This document shows, piece by piece, positions 3,594 through 47,111 of a DNA stretch of 60,525 nt. Below the pieces are notes generated by a model that was not told where the DNA came from, did no database searches, and saw nothing but the letters and a program-made list of their open reading frames with translations. Both the position numbers and the translations under genes were made by a program. Position 1 is the stretch's first letter. Each line of letters begins with the position of its first letter. Source of the DNA: Lutibacter sp. (GTDB taxonomy: Bacteria; Bacteroidota; Bacteroidia; Flavobacteriales; Flavobacteriaceae); NCBI RefSeq assembly GCF_013041805.1, contig NZ_JABDRI010000035.1, positions 1 through 60,525 on the forward strand. The letters are read 5' to 3'.

Positions 3594-6338
3594 ATGAAAA
3601 ATCTATTTTTTGCATTATTCTTTATTGTTGCAAATACAGCAATAGCTCAAATTAAATTTCAAGGTACTGTAAAAGATAGCATTGGTAACGCGTTAGAATT
3701 AGCAAATGTTATTGCTATAAACCAAGAAACAAAAGCCTTGGAATCCTATGCTATTACCAATGAGAAAGGATATTTTGCCCTTTCTTTAGGTAAAAATAAT
3801 AGATACAAAGTTCAAATTAGCTACATTGGATTGAAAAATGTTGATGCAATTATAACTGTCAATGAAGAAAATATCTCGCGAGATTTTACATTAACATCTG
3901 ACAATACTTTAGATACCATAGAATTAACCTACGAAATGCCTGTTAGGGTAAAGGGAGATACCCTTGTATACAATGCAGATTCTTTTAAAAATGGCTCGGA
4001 ACGAAAATTGGAAGATGTACTTGAAAAACTTCCCGGAGTAGAAATAAATGAAGAAGGGCAAGTAGAGGTTGAAGGGAAAGTTGTAAATAAATTAATGGTA
4101 AATGGTAAAGATTTTTTTGATGGTGACACCAAAATAGCTACAAAAAATATACCTTCAAATGCTGTTGATAAGATTCAGGTTTTAAGAAACTATTCAGAAG
4201 TTGGTCAATTAAGCAGAGTAACAAATAATCAAGATAATTTTGCATTAAATATTCAACTAAAAAAAGGAAAAGAAAATTTTTGGTTTGGTAATGTTACCGT
4301 TGGAGCAGGATCTTCACCAGAAGAGGAATTATATTTAGCACAACCAAAATTGTTTTATTACAGCCCTAAATTTAGCCTTAACTTATTAGGTGATTTAAAT
4401 AATACTGGAGAGGTAGGTCTTTCTCGAAGAGATTTAAGAAACTTTGGCGGTGGATTTGGAGCGAGGGCACCAAGCAGAAGTAGTGGAACAAATATTAATC
4501 TAGGAAATAACAGTCTCGGTTTTTTAACAAATCAAAATAATGCACTAAAAGTTGAGAACAAATTAGGTGCTACAAATTTTAGTTATTCACCGAATAGAGA
4601 TTTAGATATTAGTGGATTTGCAATATATAATAGTAGCCGTATAGCTTCGAGACAAATAAGTTTTAGAGAATTTACAGATTCAGATTTAGGAATTCCAGAT
4701 GAACAAACAGAACAAACAAGCGATGAACGATCTGATCAAGGTTTACTGAAACTAAGTGCATCGTTTAAACCGAATGTAAACAATCAATTAGACTATGATA
4801 TTTTGGGTAGAATTTCAAAAGACACCCAAGATCAACTTTTTTCATCTTCAGTTTTAGGAAACACAAATCAAATTGATGAAACAACTCCATTTAGCATCAA
4901 CCAAAATCTTAATTATTACTATACCTTAGATGAAAAAAATATTTTTGCTTTTGAGGCACAACATGTAATAAAAGATGAAGATCCTTTTTACAATGCTTTA
5001 TTGGTTAATAATCCTGATAATAATGATGAACTTGAACCTGATGATAGAGATGCTTTTGATACAACTGCAGATGCCTTAGGATTGAATGGAAATTTAAATA
5101 ATTATAATTTAGGACAAAATAGGCGCATAAAATCGAACCAACTTGATGCCAAACTTGACTATTATTACATCATAAATGCTACGAGCAATTTAAATTTAAC
5201 TTTAGGAACAATTTTAAGCCGTCAAGAGTTTAACTCGAATATATTTCAATTTTTAGAGGATGGTTCAACATTTGATCCTACCCCAACTTTTAACAATGGA
5301 CGAGCGGTTAATGATACTGAGTATAACTTTAGCGATTTATATTTAGGTGTTCATTATCGAGTAAAAACAGGGAAATTTACTATAACTCCAGGTTTTTCTC
5401 TTCATGAATACGGAAATAAAAACAGTCAATTTGGAGAAGAATATAACGATAATTTTGTTAGAATTTTACCTGATTTTGAAGCCAGAATTCAACTTAAGAA
5501 AAGTGAAAGTTTGACGTTTAGATATAACATGCAAAATCAGTTTACAGATGTCACTAGACTTGCACAAGGATTAGTTTTAAATAACTTTAACAGTATTCAA
5601 TTTGGAGAACCTGAACTTCAAAATGCCTTGTCACACAATCTAAATTTATTATATTCAAGCTTTAATTTATTTAATTACACCAATGTATTTGCTCGTTTAG
5701 CCTATGCTAAAAACATTGACCAAATTAGAGGGTTAACAAATTTTGAAAACGTAATTACAACTAGTACCTTTTTTAATTCTAGCTTTGCAGATGAAAATTT
5801 TTCAGCCTTTGGAAGAGTTCAACGAACTTTTGGAAAAGTACGTGCTACTCTTAATGCTAATTTCAACTACAGTAAATTAAATCAGTTTATACAGAACAGA
5901 CAATCTGTTAATGAACGATTTACACAAAGCTATACTCCAGGATTACGTACTAATTTTAAAATAGCTCCAAATGTTAGTGTTAATTATAGATACAGCATAT
6001 CTACAAATAATCAAGGAACTAATAAAACCATATTTTATACCAATGCTCCTTCTATAGATTTTGACGCATATATCTGGAATTCAGTCACTTTTAGAACAGA
6101 TTATACGTATAATAATCAAAGAATAGAAAATGGAGATAGTGATTCATTTGAAACTTGGAATGCATCATTGTCATATAGAAAAGATAGAGATGCTAAATGG
6201 GAATATGAAATTAGAGCTACAAATTTATTAAATATAGATTCTCGTCTAAATAATAATGCAAATAATCTGTTTGTTGAATCCTCTGAAACATTTATTCAGC
6301 CTCGATTTATTACATTTAGATTAAGATATGTAATCTAA
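3594..6338 (+). CDS. Outer-membrane beta-barrel protein with CarboxypepD_reg-like N-terminus (TonB-receptor-like)
   Basis: The protein has 914 residues. A signal peptide (about 1-18, ending IAQ) is followed by a carboxypeptidase-regulatory-like beta-sandwich (about 20-105: FQGTVKDSIGNALELANV). A plug-like region follows (about 115-215: LEDVLEKLPGVEINEEGQVEVEGK, with VNGKDFFDGD), then a long amphipathic beta-barrel domain of the OMP_b-brl_3 type. The last residues, ITFRLRYVI, form a typical closing strand. It resembles SusC/TonB-dependent receptors but is shorter than true SusC proteins, no SusD partner is nearby, and I see no clear TonB box. It forms an apparent operon with the GLPGLI gene upstream. 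The substrate is unknown. Confidence 0.88.
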   Translation: MKNLFFALFFIVANTAIAQIKFQGTVKDSIGNALELANVIAINQETKALESYAITNEKGYFALSLGKNNRYKVQISYIGLKNVDAIITVNEENISRDFTLTSDNTLDTIELTYEMPVRVKGDTLVYNADSFKNGSERKLEDVLEKLPGVEINEEGQVEVEGKVVNKLMVNGKDFFDGDTKIATKNIPSNAVDKIQVLRNYSEVGQLSRVTNNQDNFALNIQLKKGKENFWFGNVTVGAGSSPEEELYLAQPKLFYYSPKFSLNLLGDLNNTGEVGLSRRDLRNFGGGFGARAPSRSSGTNINLGNNSLGFLTNQNNALKVENKLGATNFSYSPNRDLDISGFAIYNSSRIASRQISFREFTDSDLGIPDEQTEQTSDERSDQGLLKLSASFKPNVNNQLDYDILGRISKDTQDQLFSSSVLGNTNQIDETTPFSINQNLNYYYTLDEKNIFAFEAQHVIKDEDPFYNALLVNNPDNNDELEPDDRDAFDTTADALGLNGNLNNYNLGQNRRIKSNQLDAKLDYYYIINATSNLNLTLGTILSRQEFNSNIFQFLEDGSTFDPTPTFNNGRAVNDTEYNFSDLYLGVHYRVKTGKFTITPGFSLHEYGNKNSQFGEEYNDNFVRILPDFEARIQLKKSESLTFRYNMQNQFTDVTRLAQGLVLNNFNSIQFGEPELQNALSHNLNLLYSSFNLFNYTNVFARLAYAKNIDQIRGLTNFENVITTSTFFNSSFADENFSAFGRVQRTFGKVRATLNANFNYSKLNQFIQNRQSVNERFTQSYTPGLRTNFKIAPNVSVNYRYSISTNNQGTNKTIFYTNAPSIDFDAYIWNSVTFRTDYTYNNQRIENGDSDSFETWNASLSYRKDRDAKWEYEIRATNLLNIDSRLNNNANNLFVESSETFIQPRFITFRLRYVI

Positions 6339-10878: not shown

Positions 10879-11595
10879 CTAAACATTTTCTAACCTTAAC
10901 AGTACATCTTTTTTATAACTTCTACTAATTGGAATTGCCTTTGAGCCCACCTCAATAAATTCATTGGTAAACGAATCAATTTTAGTAATAGCAATAATAT
11001 AAGATCTATGAACCCTCATAAAAATATTCTTTGGTAATTTAGCTTCAATGTTAGAAATAGTTTCTCTAGTAACAATTACTTTGTCAATCAAATTAATTTT
11101 TACATAATCACTTAAACTTTCCACGTAATTTATTTCTGAAAAATCTATTTTAACCATTTTCCGGTCGGCTCGTACAAAAATAAAGTCATTTTTTTCGGGT
11201 GTAATTTCTGGCGTATTACTAACTTCAACTACATTATTTTCACCTAAATATTTATTTACGGCTTGCAACAATCGTTCAAACGAAATTGGCTTCAACAAAT
11301 AATCTACTACTTGCAAATTAAATCCGTCAATGGCATACTCTCTATAAGCGGTTGTGAAAATTACCTTGATATTTTTATTGATTGATTTTGCAAAAGAAAG
11401 CCCTGAAATTTCAGGCATATTAATATCTAAAAAAATTAAATCTATTTTATTTAAATTAATTTGATTAAACGCTTCAACAGCATTTTTACAAGATGCCACC
11501 ACATGAACTGCATCAACTTTTTGTAAATGGCTTTCCAAAATTTCCCGCGCCATTGGCTCATCATCAACAATAATGCAGTTACAGATTTTGTTCAT
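10879..11595 (-). CDS. LytTR-type response regulator
   Basis: The protein has 238 residues. An N-terminal receiver domain (about 5-120) has acidic residues Asp11/Asp12, the phosphorylation site Asp57 in LIFLDINMPEISG, the conserved Thr-Thr-Ala and the Lys in DYLLKPISF. A C-terminal LytTR DNA-binding domain (about 140-236) carries FIFVRADRKMVKI, INYVESLSDYVKI and RVHRSYII. It would bind imperfect direct repeats in promoters and activate transcription when phosphorylated. Its cognate kinase gene overlaps it by 17 bases upstream, so the two are translationally coupled. The decarboxylase follows immediately downstream, so the pair and the mevalonate genes may share a transcript. Targets are unknown. 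Confidence 0.93.
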   Translation of the reverse strand: MNKICNCIIVDDEPMAREILESHLQKVDAVHVVASCKNAVEAFNQINLNKIDLIFLDINMPEISGLSFAKSINKNIKVIFTTAYREYAIDGFNLQVVDYLLKPISFERLLQAVNKYLGENNVVEVSNTPEITPEKNDFIFVRADRKMVKIDFSEINYVESLSDYVKINLIDKVIVTRETISNIEAKLPKNIFMRVHRSYIIAITKIDSFTNEFIEVGSKAIPISRSYKKDVLLRLENV

Positions 11596-34865: not shown

Positions 34866-34889
34866 AAGTTTCAATAAAAAAACCTATAA

Positions 34890-34929
34890 AGTCTCCTAGC
34901 GTTATATAATGCTAGGGGACTTATTTTTT
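34890..34929 (+). terminator. Intrinsic terminator after the tail-specific protease
   Basis: Arms AGTCTCCTAGC (34890-34900) and GCTAGGGGACT (34911-34921), with one G-T pair, enclose a 10-base loop and are followed by a TTATTTTTTG run. Confidence 0.75.
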
Positions 34930-35139: not shown

Positions 35140-37335
35140 ATGAAAAAACATGTATTTCTTGTTTTTTTTGCGCTAACTTTTGTAGGTTATTCCCAAAAAA
35201 AATCAAACGATTTAAAATCAAGTGATATGAGCTTGGTTGAAGTGATAGTTGCCGCTGGTATATCAAGTGGAGTGTCAACATTTAGTGATGATTCTTATGC
35301 TGGTAACGGCAGTTATGTTGAGTTATCCTCAGCCTATTATTTTTCTAAAATTGGAATAGGAATTTCACTTGGAAGTTTTTCAAACCCAACAGAAAGTAAT
35401 TTGTTGGATTTTGCAAATCAGGCTGCTTACCCAATTGCATTAAATTCAGAAGAATGGAAAACATCTTATTACGGAATTGGTCCAAATTTTAGAACAACTA
35501 TAGGAAGTCTAGAAACTACTATTTTTGGTCGTGCTGGTTTAATGTCTATTCAACCAATCTCTTTAGAAGGAAATTTTATTGCTGAAAATGCAGATGTCTC
35601 AACAACAGTTCCTGTTTATAATTTCAATACAAACGAAACTTCAAGCGTAGGATTTTATACTGCTGGTGTTAGACTTGGTTATAAAGTAAATCCAAATTTA
35701 GGTCTTCACATTTCAGCAAATTACATGTCTGCCTTTTCTGATGGTATTATTGCACAAGATGGTAGAAAACAATTTACAGATATTGACAAAGATGGTCTTA
35801 TAACAGAAATAGATATCATTAGACAAGATGGTGAACAAGTAGAATTTCAATACACAGAAAAAAACATAAAACCACAGGTGTTTAATTACGGTTTTGGCCT
35901 AAGTTATAGTTTTGGAAAAAGAACTATTAAAATTGGAGGAGCAGAAAAACCCTACGCTAGAGGGCAATCAAACCCATATTTTGTTAATAATGAAATGGTA
36001 GGTGAAATGATGTCTGCAAATCCTGACGGAAGCAGCGGAAATGGAAATAATGAAGGAATAAAAAACGTTTATGTAGGCAAAAATAGAATTTCTGTAGCCT
36101 TAACGAATCCATCTAAAGAAGAAGCTAAACAAAAAGACCAACAAGTAAAATTAATAAACGTACTACCAAAAAACAACAGTAACTATAAAAACACAAATGA
36201 AATAGGTTCATTCAATTGGAAAATAATTGGAAGTAAAATTCCGAAACCTAACTATATCATTGAAGTAACTAAATTAAATAACGTTAAACAACCTCAACGA
36301 TCTTATGCTAGCCAAACATCAAAAAATAGTATAAAGGCAACTACTCTTTTTAAAGATGATAAACTAAGTGATGGCAATTATAGCTGGAAAGTTACCGAAA
36401 CATCAACAGGAATTTCGTCAAATCCAAGTTATTTTACGATGACCCAATGCGAAATTGATTTCACCATTGCAAATGAAGAGATTGAATGTTTAGGCTATGA
36501 ACAGGAAAATAGAAAGTTTAAAATTTGTTTTGATGTAACTTATGCAAGTACTTCAGGCGATTTAACATTTGTAAATCCAGGTACTGGCTTATCAGTTTAT
36601 GATCAAACATATGCATCATTATCATATACTTTAGTAAGCCCAAATCCAACATTAGTTACACAAATTGGTGCAACTACATCTACAGTTAGTTATTGTTTTG
36701 AAGTAACGGTGTCAGCAAGTGTAACCGCCATAGGTTTTGGGTTACAAGGCGACGATTTAGATCCAAGCCCAATTACTTGCCAGCCAGGCGTTAGTCAATT
36801 ATTTGATGACTTACCAGATTGTATTTGCGATGAATGTGAAGAAATTGAGCTTTCATTTGATGAATTCAATATCACACCAAATTTGGGAACAGGAAACCAG
36901 TTCAATTTTAATGGAAACATTAATGTAAATGTTCCTATTTACGGAATTGAGTTCCAAGTACAATCATATACATATTCCGCATCACCAAGTGCGTGCTCAG
37001 ATGGTGTTAGTAGTGTTGAAGAATCTGGAATGATTTTAATGCCAGGAACAACTATAAACGGTTCAACCTCTTTACAGTTAACTAATGAAACTGCTTCTGG
37101 AAGTCCAAGCTCTAATGATAACGCAACGAAAAACATAAAATATACAAGTAATTCACCTTTAACAGGTGCAATTCCAGTGAACTTAACTATTGGCTTACCG
37201 GGACCTATATCAGGTCTCGATCCAAGTTGCTGTGTTATGGAATACACGGTCTGCATAAAAGTTAAAGTCTTTTATGAAGAAAGTAATTGTAAATCGTGTG
37301 TGTTTACACATTGCTTCACATTTAATAACCAATAA
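35140..37335 (+). CDS. Outer-membrane/surface protein with N-terminal barrel-like region and C-terminal cysteine-rich module
   Basis: The protein has 731 residues. A signal peptide (about 1-18) is followed by a region rich in alternating beta strands ending in Gly/Tyr/Phe, like an outer-membrane beta-barrel (about 30-270; GSYVELSSAYYFSKIGIGISLG, VFNYGFGLSYSFGK). Next is a fibronectin-like segment (about 345-435: GSFNWKIIGSKIP, DGNYSWKVTET). From about 440 it turns cysteine-rich. Residues 563-731 form a module with a CxxC start (CDEC) and an end pattern SCCVMEYTVCIKVKV, NCKSC and HCFTF. The same pattern occurs in the next protein, 11 bases downstream. I do not recognise the module. The pair is probably an anchored/secreted surface complex. 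Confidence 0.75.
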   Translation: MKKHVFLVFFALTFVGYSQKKSNDLKSSDMSLVEVIVAAGISSGVSTFSDDSYAGNGSYVELSSAYYFSKIGIGISLGSFSNPTESNLLDFANQAAYPIALNSEEWKTSYYGIGPNFRTTIGSLETTIFGRAGLMSIQPISLEGNFIAENADVSTTVPVYNFNTNETSSVGFYTAGVRLGYKVNPNLGLHISANYMSAFSDGIIAQDGRKQFTDIDKDGLITEIDIIRQDGEQVEFQYTEKNIKPQVFNYGFGLSYSFGKRTIKIGGAEKPYARGQSNPYFVNNEMVGEMMSANPDGSSGNGNNEGIKNVYVGKNRISVALTNPSKEEAKQKDQQVKLINVLPKNNSNYKNTNEIGSFNWKIIGSKIPKPNYIIEVTKLNNVKQPQRSYASQTSKNSIKATTLFKDDKLSDGNYSWKVTETSTGISSNPSYFTMTQCEIDFTIANEEIECLGYEQENRKFKICFDVTYASTSGDLTFVNPGTGLSVYDQTYASLSYTLVSPNPTLVTQIGATTSTVSYCFEVTVSASVTAIGFGLQGDDLDPSPITCQPGVSQLFDDLPDCICDECEEIELSFDEFNITPNLGTGNQFNFNGNINVNVPIYGIEFQVQSYTYSASPSACSDGVSSVEESGMILMPGTTINGSTSLQLTNETASGSPSSNDNATKNIKYTSNSPLTGAIPVNLTIGLPGPISGLDPSCCVMEYTVCIKVKVFYEESNCKSCVFTHCFTFNNQ

Positions 37336-37346
37336 AAATTACTATC

Positions 37347-40300
37347 ATGAAAAAAATAATATATACATTCAAAACATATATGTTGCTAGTATTTTTATTC
37401 GCAACAGCTCTAGGGTACTCACAAATAGTATTAAATACTTCACCAAATACAGATACATGTAATTTAAGTGGAGATAATGTTACAGTTTCTGTTCCATCAG
37501 AAGCTTTAACAGGTGACAATATTGCTTTAAACATTACATTACCCGGAAGTTATGATGCTGGCTGTGTAAAAACAGTAAGTATTACAAACTCTGCAAATTT
37601 AGTATTTCAAAGTTCTGGAGCCATTCCTTTTACAAATATGGGAGGTGGAACCTACCAAAATAATCCATCACCTACTTTAAATGGTAATGATGGTCATAAT
37701 TTTAACGTGTTCTATAAATTTCCAGGTTATACAACGTGCAATGGAACTGTTGGTACTTTTGATGTTACAGTAACTCTCGATTGTGCTGGTGTTATAACAA
37801 CGTGCACAACTTCAGTAAGTGTTATTGCCAGAGCTGATAATTATTGGTCTATCACCAAAGAATTTGTAACAGGTGATTTAACTTGCGGACTTTCAACTTG
37901 GAAAATTAAACTTCATCATAACAATCCAAATGGATCTGGTTTAGGGACTTACAAACTGTCTGGTACTATTACTGAAACCCCTTCTGTTCCTATAGTAAAT
38001 GGAGCGGTGCACACCGTAAATTATTCTATGGCAAGTAATTCATTTTACACAAAATATGTAACGCTTCAAAACTGTGCTCCAGAAGGCTCTATTATTACGA
38101 ATAGTGCTAATTACAATTTCACATTGGGAGACGGCACTTGTGGTACAATGACAGGGTCAGTTTCTGCTGTTTCAGACCCTTTAGTTTCTCCAAATACAGA
38201 TTTATCTTTTGTTAAATATGCCTATGATAATAATGGGTATCCAAGTACGCATCCTTATTTTAACATCCCACCAGGTTGTTCTGGGAAATACCGGATTCAA
38301 GCCAAGAATAATGGAAATGTACCTTGGACAAATCTTGTAATTACTGATGATTTCAATATTCCTGGAATTACAATTACAAATATAAGCCCACCTGCAGGAT
38401 GGATAACATTACCTACAATACCTCCTTACCTAAATATATTGTACACATTTACAGCTCCACTTGGTTTTGTTTTAAATCCCGGGGAAGAAATTAATATTTG
38501 GGTAGATTTTGAAGTAAATTTAACAACCTTAGTAGGAACTACAATTACGAATAGTGCAACTATCGATTATCAAGCTAGCGGAACAGGGAGTGGGAACGGT
38601 AATGGAGGTGGTCCATCACCTTGCCCTGCAATCAGTTGTCCAACAATTGATACTTCTCTTCAAAATGACTCAACTACTGTAGATTTTGATGTTGCAACAA
38701 AAGAACCAAGAGGCTCTATTAAAAAGTGTATTTTAAATCCACCTAGTGCAATTGTTCCTCCTATTTACCAAATTGGTGATATCATGGAATTTAGCGTAAT
38801 GATTGGAAATTCTGGGGCAGGAAATTTAACTACAATATTAACAGATGCTTTTGGAATGCCTGGACAAAATTTAGAGATTCTTCCAGGTTCAATTACCTAT
38901 GAATATTATGCAGATCAAAACCGAAGTTATCGAAACAGTTGTAGCCCGCCATTTGGAGCTCCAATACCACCGCCTTTTTCAGTTGTGGCTGATACATTGA
39001 ATTTGCAAAATCCATTTTGGACTATTACCAATATGCCAGGAATTTGTGATTACAATAGGTCTAACTTCTTAATTATTAAATTTAATGCTGAAGTTCTACC
39101 TCAACTACATGGTACAAAAACAAATTCAGCAAGTATTCCAAGTACGACAGGTGCTGGAACGCATTCAAGTGCAGTAAATTATAGTATAGATCAAGTTGGT
39201 GTGTTAGGAATATTTAAAGAAGCTGATGAAGAAATTGTAGAAAACGGACAATCGTTTAATTATATAATTACAATTTCAAATGATGGAAGTGTACCTTTAG
39301 ATAACATTGTAATTACCGATATGTTACCTAATTGTGTTTCTGTAAATGGAACCTTAACGATTGAAGATGACCTAGCAACTCCTATCCCTTTTACAACTTC
39401 TGGTAGCCTCATAATTAATATCAATCCGGCTATACAAATATTCCCAGGAAATGATTTTACAATCACAATTCCGGTTGTTAAATCTGGAGGAGGAAATTGT
39501 TGTAATGAAAGTGTTTCAGTAACTGCTGAAATGACAACTTCAGGTGTAGAATTAAATGCTAATTATGGAAGTCCAGAAGCTCCTGCTGCTTGTGTTACAG
39601 GAACTGAATGTTGTGATATTGAAGATTTCGATGCCTCTATTCAAGAAAACAATGGTTCATTTAACGTTAATATAAATGGTGGAAGTGTTCCTTTACAAGA
39701 GGTTGAAATCTCCATGGTAGATTATCATATTGAATATTCTGAAAGAGATTGTAAACCTGATGATTTAGGTGTATTTGGAACGTTAACAACTTCAACAACC
39801 AACCTTAGTAATTTAATTTTAAATTCTGGAGACAATGGCACAAGCAGTTTGTCTTGGTTGTTAGGAAATCCTTCAATAATAAACTCATCAGTTAATTTGG
39901 ATATTTTGTATCCTGATGTTTTAAATTTAGAATGTTGTGATGTCGAGTTTTACTTTTGCTTAAAAGTGAAAGTTAAAGATGTTAACTGTAATGTTTGTGA
40001 AAAAATTATTTGTTTTACAAATGAGACACCACCACCTCCTTGTGAAATCGATATTAATGGTTTACAAGATCAAAAATATTGTGTGGGTGAAACTATTACA
40101 ATAAACTGGTCTGGTTCTACACCAACTGGACTTGTAAATGTTTCTTTATTTGATGTTACAAATAGTGCAATTTATCAAGTGTTGGCTACAAATATTCCAA
40201 ACACAGGAACATTTACATATACCATTCCTGCAACCATATCTTGTGATCCTCCTAGAACTTGGTCTTTAATTGTTGAAGATGCAGAAAAAGAGTGTTTTAA

Positions 40301-40766
40301 TAGAAGTAATCCATTTATAATTGAATGCTGTGAACAACATGGTGATTGTGATTGTGGCGAATGGTTAACAAATGGTGTTACGGTAAAAGGATACATTAAA
40401 AAGATTCCTAAAGATCCGAAACAAAAAATAAATTTCCAAACAAACTTTGAAAAGCAAATAGAATGTGAAGGTCAAATAACTCTAAAACCTACCATGAATT
40501 ATACCTTTACATCGCCAAACTATGTTTGTAATCCAGAAAATTGTGATGTAGCATACAAATGGGAAGTTATAGATCCAGATGGAATTATTTTATCTGGCAA
40601 TGGAAAAACATTCAATTATAACTTTAATGATTATGGAACTTATAAAATAATTTTTACACCAATTTGTGGTGGAAATGAATGTGAGCCTTGTATAGTTTAT
40701 GTGAATATTGAAAAACAAGGACCTGTTGTTATAGATGGGCAAATTTATAAACCTACTAAGTTTTAA
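37347..40766 (+). CDS. Large secreted DUF11-repeat protein with the shared cysteine-rich module
   Basis: The protein has 1139 residues. A signal peptide (about 1-26, ending LGYSQ) is followed by beta-sandwich repeats. DUF11-like domains lie at about 285-395 (VPWTNLVITDDFNIPGI) and 615-715 (VGVLGIFKEADEEIVENG, VPLDNIVITDMLPNCVSV). Residues 755-891 hold the cysteine module also found in the previous protein: ECCDVEFYFCLKVKV at 862-876, then NCNVC and ICFTN. After it come a Ser-Thr-type Ig-like domain (about 898-985) and a PKD-like domain near the end (YKWEVIDPDGIILSG). No type IX secretion sorting domain is evident at the C-terminus. An adhesin or matrix role is plausible. A terminator follows. 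Confidence 0.8.
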   Translation: MKKIIYTFKTYMLLVFLFATALGYSQIVLNTSPNTDTCNLSGDNVTVSVPSEALTGDNIALNITLPGSYDAGCVKTVSITNSANLVFQSSGAIPFTNMGGGTYQNNPSPTLNGNDGHNFNVFYKFPGYTTCNGTVGTFDVTVTLDCAGVITTCTTSVSVIARADNYWSITKEFVTGDLTCGLSTWKIKLHHNNPNGSGLGTYKLSGTITETPSVPIVNGAVHTVNYSMASNSFYTKYVTLQNCAPEGSIITNSANYNFTLGDGTCGTMTGSVSAVSDPLVSPNTDLSFVKYAYDNNGYPSTHPYFNIPPGCSGKYRIQAKNNGNVPWTNLVITDDFNIPGITITNISPPAGWITLPTIPPYLNILYTFTAPLGFVLNPGEEINIWVDFEVNLTTLVGTTITNSATIDYQASGTGSGNGNGGGPSPCPAISCPTIDTSLQNDSTTVDFDVATKEPRGSIKKCILNPPSAIVPPIYQIGDIMEFSVMIGNSGAGNLTTILTDAFGMPGQNLEILPGSITYEYYADQNRSYRNSCSPPFGAPIPPPFSVVADTLNLQNPFWTITNMPGICDYNRSNFLIIKFNAEVLPQLHGTKTNSASIPSTTGAGTHSSAVNYSIDQVGVLGIFKEADEEIVENGQSFNYIITISNDGSVPLDNIVITDMLPNCVSVNGTLTIEDDLATPIPFTTSGSLIININPAIQIFPGNDFTITIPVVKSGGGNCCNESVSVTAEMTTSGVELNANYGSPEAPAACVTGTECCDIEDFDASIQENNGSFNVNINGGSVPLQEVEISMVDYHIEYSERDCKPDDLGVFGTLTTSTTNLSNLILNSGDNGTSSLSWLLGNPSIINSSVNLDILYPDVLNLECCDVEFYFCLKVKVKDVNCNVCEKIICFTNETPPPPCEIDINGLQDQKYCVGETITINWSGSTPTGLVNVSLFDVTNSAIYQVLATNIPNTGTFTYTIPATISCDPPRTWSLIVEDAEKECFNRSNPFIIECCEQHGDCDCGEWLTNGVTVKGYIKKIPKDPKQKINFQTNFEKQIECEGQITLKPTMNYTFTSPNYVCNPENCDVAYKWEVIDPDGIILSGNGKTFNYNFNDYGTYKIIFTPICGGNECEPCIVYVNIEKQGPVVIDGQIYKPTKF

Positions 40767-42180: not shown

Positions 42181-42555
42181 ATGAAAACTAAGTTATTTTT
42201 AATCGCAACATTATTTATTTCAACACTAACATTTTCTCAAACTACTAAAAAAGGATACAACTATTACAAAAATACAAGTGATATCAAAAAAATGAAGAAC
42301 GGTGAAGAAATTCATGTTTTAGCGAAACAAAGAAAGTTTTCAATAAAGAAATATGGGAAAATGGGTAATCACCCAACCACTGCAAGACACAACTGGATAC
42401 AAGGCCGCAGCAGAGCAAGTATTTCAACACAAGAAATTGAACAAACAAATTCTAAAAAGTTTAGATCTAGACCAATTGATGGAAAAAATGAAATTGGACA
42501 ATCAGATCACTTACATTTAAGAAAAAGACCTGGAAGAACTAAATACAAAAATTAA
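42181..42555 (+). CDS. Small basic secreted protein, unknown function
   Basis: The protein has 124 residues. A signal peptide (about 1-19, ending LTFSQ) precedes a strongly basic mature chain of about 105 residues rich in Lys and Arg (KKMKNGEEIHVLAKQRKFSIKKYGKMG; RKRPGRTKYKN) with several His and no Cys. No recognised domain. It lies 83 bases after the nuclease gene; given its charge it could bind nucleic acid or anionic polysaccharide, but that is only suggested by composition. A hairpin terminator at 42654 ends the unit. Confidence 0.6.
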   Translation: MKTKLFLIATLFISTLTFSQTTKKGYNYYKNTSDIKKMKNGEEIHVLAKQRKFSIKKYGKMGNHPTTARHNWIQGRSRASISTQEIEQTNSKKFRSRPIDGKNEIGQSDHLHLRKRPGRTKYKN

Positions 42556-47027: not shown

Positions 47028-47029
47028 AG

Positions 47030-47111
47030 TGCGGGCGGGGAGACTCGAACTCCCACACCTTGCGGCACTAGATCCTAAGTCTAGCGTGTCTACCAATTCC
47101 ACCACGCCCGC
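47030..47111 (-). tRNA. tRNA-Leu (anticodon TAG)
   Basis: On the minus strand the sequence folds as a class II tRNA: acceptor arms GCGGGCG and CGCCCGC with discriminator A, a D-loop with GGTAGAC, and anticodon stem CTAGA/TCTAG holding the loop CTTAGGA with anticodon TAG. A variable arm (TGCCGCAAGGTGT) and a T-arm GGGAGTTCGAGTCTCCC complete it. The CCA end is not encoded. The gene is isolated, with a very good promoter upstream. Confidence 0.95.

Follow-up and report, generated by a model that had tools for sequence, protein, structure and literature searches.

An unregistered cysteine-rich module shared by two adjacent Lutibacter genes, and a gene pair that recurs in Bacteroidota

Two adjacent genes of a Lutibacter genome (assembly GCF_013041805.1) encode proteins that share one homologous cysteine-rich module of ~145–170 amino acids (aa). 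They lie in contig NZ_JABDRI010000035.1, of which positions 1 to 60,525 were analysed; this whole 60,525-nucleotide stretch is referred to as the window. The first gene (35140..37335, forward strand, like every feature of the locus described below) encodes P1, of 731 aa, and the second (37347..40766) encodes P2, of 1139 aa. Recomputation from the sequence confirmed both sets of coordinates and the 11-base spacing between the genes. The unregistered domain and the recurrent gene pair are both real, and their recurrence in distant relatives suggests an unrecognised system of a membrane anchor and its partner. To the more specific reading, a dedicated two-partner envelope cassette with P1 as anchor, P2 as passenger and the module as docking unit, we give roughly even chances. 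We infer that P1 and P2 would bind each other physically, with the module as the means of binding.

The module forms the C-terminal end of P1 (m1, aa 561–731, 36820..37332) and an internal part of P2 (m2, aa 749–891, 39591..40019), each copy containing 10 cysteines and appearing Ig-like. The motif beginning CC-x2-E-[YF], from which a first-pass annotation had proposed a common module, has one match per protein, at P1 697–726 and P2 863–890. That annotation had also described paired cysteines at the start of each copy; both starts are indeed cysteine-rich, but their spacing differs, being C-x-C-x-x-C in m1 (561/563/566) and C...CC in m2 (749/755/756). In BLASTP, full-length P1 and P2 matched at E 6e-6 across the ~70 final residues of P1, and Smith-Waterman alignment of the two regions scored 122 against 34.7 +/- 6.3 for shuffled sequences, none of 2000 shuffles scoring as high. 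Two profiles made independently, one of 14 m1 and one of 14 m2 sequences, matched each other at a probability of 89.8% and E 1.8e-6. With m1 as query and a limit of E <= 10, the source genome (2.8 Mb) yielded nothing beyond the query itself and m2 (E 3.6e-4).

The description of the module as unrecognised also held, as none of 27 members matched Pfam or NCBIfam at E <= 0.01. A comparison of 15 module sequences with Pfam at E <= 1 gave two matches, each from a single member (DUF4321, 0.0012; KKLCAg1, 0.018). Against PDB sequences, a 27-row profile gave no match at E <= 1 and an earlier 15-row profile gave one, at E 0.33. A literature search on the module found no description of it in titles or abstract openings among the matches listed.

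Across 59 aligned modules the first and last cysteines of the start cluster align (cysteine in 56 and 59, respectively), while the middle one is shifted, occupying position 563 in 22 rows and 565 in 33, and never both. The columns of C566 and C717 (P1 numbering) hold cysteine in 59/59 modules. C705 and C725 are both present in 53 and both absent in six, with neither ever found singly (phi 1.00), a sequence pattern that hints at a 705–725 disulfide. Five of the six modules lacking them come from relatives that carry the module in one gene only; these five cluster in the tree and have no cysteine in the C619 column either. The sixth is m1 of genome G900. Since five of the six cases are related, the co-loss represents about two independent losses, and the evidence it offers is weaker than the coefficient implies.

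To describe the distribution of the module and pair, genomes were drawn from the genus (38), family (397), order (395), class (395) and phylum (395), and from a family labelled f18 (324). Loci were found by searching for the module, so that any pair with a module-free P2 would have been missed. Among named records, relatives of P1 were found in three from Lutibacter and in one metagenome bin that carries the label Psychroflexus. Within the genus, P2 and P1 were each matched in 16/38 genomes at E <= 0.001; both genes with their modules were present in 13/38 and adjacent in 13/13, while partial matches comprised the barrel region (G010, G012), a short piece of P1 (G021) and C-terminal pieces of P2 (G021, G029, G030). 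The family draw yielded matches in 7/397 genomes, five of them outside the genus and all five with the pair, and the order draw yielded one match in 395, the source genome itself. Matches in the phylum draw (12/395) were the source genome, three pairs (G794, G900, G1056), G912 and seven one-gene genomes. In f18, 15/324 genomes matched, 13 with the pair; these 13 span 8 genera, with five of them from one genus. The class draw (6/395) comprised three genomes already known, two further pairs and one single gene. In total, the pair occurred in 20/23 module-positive genomes from other genera of the class (5/5 from the family, 13/15 from f18 and 2/3 new from the class draw). The module is thus rare within any single draw, yet spread across the phylum Bacteroidota.

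We compared 24 pair loci, namely 23 from the drawn genomes, including the source genome, and one from record L006; hits above 1e-6, among them a weak internal hit in L070, were dropped and split hits in one frame were counted as one module. The genes are adjacent and on the same strand in 24/24, with gaps of -71 to 26 bp given mechanically chosen starts. In 23/24 loci m1 lies 0–29 aa from the C-terminus of P1, the remaining case being G1056 at 77 aa. The length of the second protein varies between 589 and 2042 aa, and m2 lies either inside it or at its very end. In 6/14 relatives of P2 (G014, G235, G150, G1056, L147, L150) the module was the sole match to the window's P2 by BLASTP at E <= 0.001. 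By the same measure 5/14 relatives of P1 gave no match to the window's P1 (L142, L143, L147, L150, G1056), while profiles found the module and an Fn3-like domain in all five and the domain preceding m1, D1, in one. These P1 domain profiles were home-made, and many of the P1s profiled sat in the profiles' own alignment; one locus, L042, has unread bases and was excluded from the full P1 alignment but kept in the m1 alignment A1. The conserved neighbourhood of the two genes fits a partner role.

Structure prediction places P1 at the outer membrane. Its N-terminal signal peptide (aa 1–19, 35140..35196, judged by eye) is followed by a region predicted by AlphaFold2 and Foldseek to be an 8-stranded barrel of OmpA type (aa 30–260, 35227..35919). 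Residues 32–258 contain 13 strand segments in the model; in our reading these make up eight long strands, connected by short turns (67–71, 121–124 and 182–187) or otherwise by long loops. Foldseek returned integrin chains in its first eight rows (TM <= 0.19) and then OmpA, NspA, OmpX and OmpW barrels, with TM by target of 0.55–0.63; the same region reached only E 0.92 against the Pfam family OMP_b-brl, short of its cut-off. Beyond the barrel, a linker of very low confidence (260–334) leads to sandwich domains: one which we take to be Fn3-like (aa 337–436, 36148..36447, from model strands and a home-made profile), the cysteine-containing D1 directly N-terminal of m1 (aa 437–560, 36448..36819, also from a home-made profile) and m1 itself. 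As the strand number of an OmpA topology is even, these C-terminal domains would be placed in the periplasm.

Modelling of a P2 fragment gave a mean pLDDT of 84.2 and a pTM of 0.42. The P1 and P2 fragment predictions were made from separate alignments, and the main strand order of the two modules agrees, with strands at 571–580, 587–596, 600–615, 665–674, 677–685, 699–711 and 719–729 in m1, and at 762–768, 771–777, 783–797, 834–838, 846–853, 866–878 and 883–890 (P2 numbering) in m2. Both modelled modules look like Ig-like sandwiches, a label resting mainly on strand order because the Foldseek matches are generic and of low TM (for the P2 fragment, mostly chains with Ig- or Fn3-type domains, TM by query <= 0.25 among the matches listed).

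In the two-partner cassette, P1 would be an outer-membrane subunit whose OmpA-like barrel is joined through a flexible linker to the Fn3-like domain, D1 and m1. P2 would be an exchangeable passenger built from Ig-like repeats of adhesin type, to which some relatives add a lectin-like domain of FISUMP type. The shared disulfide-rich Ig-like module would have been born of an old duplication, and m2 would be recognised in P2 by P1, most simply through m1–m2 pairing and possibly with help from the domains beside m1. The barrel topology would direct this contact to the periplasmic face, where P1 would hold P2 beneath the membrane or pass it on for export. The first-pass annotation had envisaged a disulfide-locked pairing domain that holds a membrane-anchored and a secreted surface protein together. 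An OmpA-like P1 would put m1 in the periplasm, and the contact of P1 and P2 may then not be on the surface.

Trees, into which several locus numbers from one genome were entered once, bear on descent. In a tree of 48 modules the division into m1 and m2 requires 3 changes, against 16.3 in shuffles, and in a tree of 55 modules it requires one, with support 54/84. Modules cluster by gene position, not as one clean split. Several sets of genomes appear on both sides of the m1–m2 division (G014 with G235; six around G794; and G1412, G1438, G1728 and G1761). Distances among m1 and among m2 sequences are correlated (Mantel r 0.944, none of 2000 permutations as high, species phylogeny not removed), which shared ancestry alone could produce. 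Exchange may also occur. G014 belongs to the same genus, and the three genes upstream of its pair, which we take to be lpxB-, surE- and tail-protease-like, are 78–91% identical to those of the window. Within the pair, by contrast, identity is 50–52% where alignment is possible, and the N-terminal portions cannot be aligned. The modules of G014 group with those of G235, from another genus, in both tree halves, and judging from these sequences the pair looks to have been replaced as one unit at a fixed site.

A further point in favour of the cassette comes from P1s without a barrel-profile hit. A putative barrel gene of ~580 aa was present in the stretch at 7/10 loci with such a P1 and in 0/15 other stretches. 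Taken for a barrel by eye, it stands beside the pair in five of L095, L142, L143, L146, L147, L150 and L151, and is one frame off in L146. The three members tested had no Pfam match at E <= 0.01. Hits of the P1 barrel profile in L049, L066 and L067 were discarded as artefacts, those rows having been in the profile's own alignment.

Several observations weigh against the two-partner cassette. Firstly, the proposal that the module is a pairing domain retains three supports, in that no family searched covers it, predicted strand order is shared and gene adjacency is conserved, but the module lacks a visible partner in seven genomes of other classes where one gene only was found (at one such locus, L102, the contig begins 97 bases upstream of the gene). 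Partners were likewise not visible for three hits within the class, G1212 (near a contig end), G1303 (which stops inside) and G1709, and G912 has two neighbouring proteins with two modules in each. Secondly, the module-based search for loci weakens any claim that the module is the constant part of the system, and P1 beyond the module is inconstant: across 22 pair loci the Fn3-like domain, D1 and module occur together in 14, the Fn3-like domain and module in 6 and the module alone in 2. Thirdly, the contrast in the ~580 aa barrel gene becomes 7/13 if L049, L066 and L067 are counted as barrel-less; its profile was built from five of the seven, and its distance from the pair is 5 kb in L095. Fourthly, confidence in the P1 model is moderate (mean pLDDT 69.5, pTM 0.36), with parts of m1 (621–628 and 650–660) below a pLDDT of 50. 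Lastly, none of the bootstrap trees (0%) of the 48 modules separates m1 from m2 with one change, only 50% do so for the 55 modules, and m1 and m2 share a nearest neighbour in only 12/24 genomes.

Ig-like modules are, moreover, common and may merely be spacers. Were the module an ordinary Ig-like structural spacer reused in secreted proteins, the genes would simply be co-transcribed, with no binding through it. The Ig-like strand order, the generic Ig/Fn3-type matches, the one-gene forms and L093, where each of two proteins has two modules, all accord with this. A spacer would not, however, require one module per neighbouring gene in 24 pair loci of many genera while other parts of P2 vary, and we consider the explanation rather unlikely.

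The location of P2 is a separate concern. Its designation as a surface protein in the first-pass annotation is unproven, as its tail matches no sorting family at E <= 0.05. Specifically, no Por_Secre_tail match (TIGR04183) was found in P2, and no type B sorting domain (TIGR04131) at E <= 1, nor at 0.05 with the tail alone; the P2 of L094 has a weak TIGR04131 match (0.0021), below the cut-off. The alternative that P2 is exported and held outside, which we judge unlikely, nonetheless draws on several lines of evidence. The source genome encodes SprA (2544.7 bits) and 21 type A signals, 19 of them over the cut-off, and the module lies 0–5 aa from the end of P2, the usual place of sorting domains, in 7/24 pair loci (G794, G900, G1145, G1412, G1438, G1728, G1761). 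In addition, 5/7 one-gene relatives from other classes carry a C-terminal type A signal (Por_Secre_tail) over the cut-off, with a weaker one in L097 (0.0021) and none at 0.05 in L096. The module of the one-gene relatives is probably outside the cell, as most of these proteins end in type A signals. Against the export of P2, m2 of the window lies 243 aa from the end of the protein, and the one-gene relatives have the module alongside a type A signal that is distinct from it.

The closest working model for such a pairing is provided by the PorP/SprF-like barrels (SprF–SprB, PorP–PG1035). In the accessible portions of two papers, these are described as holding a cognate type B cargo of the type IX secretion system (T9SS), often encoded alongside (PMC9143113, PMC12618676), and the first of these gives the barrel as 14-stranded and of FadL type. 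A predicted barrel and a large adhesin-like protein are likewise encoded next to each other in P1 and P2. However, P1 has no PorP/SprF match in NCBIfam at E <= 1, and its barrel is predicted to have 8 long strands (13 segments) resembling those of OmpA, OmpX, OmpW and NspA, rather than 14. The window's P2 also lacks the type B signal, P1 and P2 share a homologous domain, and here the gene for the barrel protein is the first of the two. A second likeness is to T9SS type A substrates that bear repeats of DUF11 type, as one-gene relatives carry the module and at least one, L097, combines it with DUF11-type repeats, but the window's P2 has no type A signal and does have a partner gene. OmpA-type barrels with periplasmic C-terminal domains resemble P1 in predicted fold and differ in that the periplasmic part of P1 would be Ig-like and cysteine-rich, and in that P1 falls below the Pfam barrel cut-off.

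TANFOR proteins, which the portion of the source available describes as Bacteroidota proteins mostly with a Sec signal and Fn3 domains and near T9SS substrates (PMC7073777), have N-termini that by eye are similar to those of some barrel-less P1s. This identity was dropped in the absence of TIGR02542 matches, none being found in the window's P1 or P2 at E <= 1, or at E <= 0.01 in the P1s of L092, L094 and L095 or one L093 protein.

We regard as distinctly doubtful the further proposal of a new export and anchoring route, in which m2 would be a sorting or docking domain outside types A and B and P1 its dedicated carrier. The C-x-C-x-x-C of m1 would then serve, on the periplasmic face, for disulfide exchange with P2 or with track proteins, in the manner of the twin cysteines of SprF and PorG. 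According to the accessible part of one paper, SprF has a conserved Cys-x-Cys in its periplasmic tail, and both SprF and PorG are linked to GldK by disulfides through a twin-cysteine motif (PMC12635249). The resemblance of the P1 motif to that of SprF, as given in that portion, is a lead only.

That the pair instead builds a periplasmic or outer-membrane structural layer, with P2 never exiting the periplasm, seems most improbable: the OmpA-like topology would put the Fn3-like domain, D1 and m1 inside, the P2 tail has no sorting-family match and the many conserved cysteines fit an oxidising periplasm, but P2 has adhesin-type DUF11 repeats and 6/14 aligned orthologues a FISUMP-like C-terminal domain, both usually regarded as surface parts.

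P2, as described from sequence and family scans, consists of a signal peptide (aa 1–25, 37347..37421, judged by eye), Ig-like repeats, m2, a Kre9-like domain and a CGEW/PKD-like domain. A repeat of DUF11/DUF7507 type at about aa 620–709 (39204..39473) matches PF24346 (E 4.2e-9), TIGR01451 (E 1.7e-13) and, below its cut-off, TIGR04226 (E 1e-4). The Kre9/KNH-like Ig domain (aa 897–997, 40035..40337) was assigned through a homologous stretch of L066 that matches PF10342 over the cut-off (E 2.5e-8), the window's own region having no such Pfam match at E <= 1. The second recurrent cysteine-containing domain (aa 1001–1121, 40347..40709) has weak PKD and Y_Y_Y matches, and a home-made profile recovers it at other loci. 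In L066 (genome G327), a partial third P2-like frame with the module end, Kre9-like and CGEW domains follows the pair at 4513–5301.

Orthologues with the FISUMP-like domain (L008, L011, L003, L005, L014, L019) carry it as an extra ~200 aa at the C-terminus. The P2s of L003 and L049 gave matches to TIGR02145 (3.6e-5 and 6.9e-7) and PF09603 (2.1e-6 and 8.8e-6), all below the cut-offs, while Pfam and NCBIfam scans of the window's P2 gave neither. The window's P2 may have lost this domain, since it ends (about 40730–40766) where the domain would start. A literature search for FISUMP found no paper. Some P2s have a lectin-like C-terminal domain ending SVRCIKN; a diversity-generating retroelement is unsupported, though not disproved, no reverse transcriptase having been recognised by eye beside P2 in the open reading frame lists of L003, L005 and L049, for which no dedicated search was made.

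Within the predicted barrel of P1, as described from its sequence, orthologues and model, the 12-residue stretch DIDKDGLITEID (aa 214–225, 35779..35814), presumably an EF-hand-like loop, lies in the fourth long outer loop of the modelled barrel; a pattern for such loops is also matched by 8 further P1 frames (six from the same genus, the others from G244 and G150). A pattern scan alone placed terminator-like hairpins between an upstream protease-type gene and P1 (15 pairs, 34889..34922) and 3' of P2 (40796..40812); it returned 11 sites in the window against 2.8 expected, several of which fall within genes.

In the surroundings of the pair, we noted LytTR-type response regulators in 9/24 pair stretches besides the window (L067, L069, L070, L092, L137–L140, L146), five of them confirmed by Pfam; the window's own LytTR profile match, at 10879–11595, is over 23 kb from the pair. 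By eye, a transposase-like gene lies immediately upstream of the pair in a Lutibacter bin (L005, 3–749). HU/IHF-like sequence was similarly recognised within a secreted barrel-type protein of G010 (L050, 6445–9954), and remnants of it in a small secreted protein encoded 3' of the pair (L003, 7659–8174; window, 42181–42555). The window also contains one tRNA-Leu gene (47029–47111, minus strand).

With the unregistered domain family and the recurrent gene pair defined, annotators and experimenters can see which proteins are to be taken together. Should P1 indeed carry P2, the Bacteroidota would possess a second, structurally different means of matching an outer-membrane barrel to a large passenger of its own, and partner recognition could be tested on a natural set, the exchangeable parts of P2.

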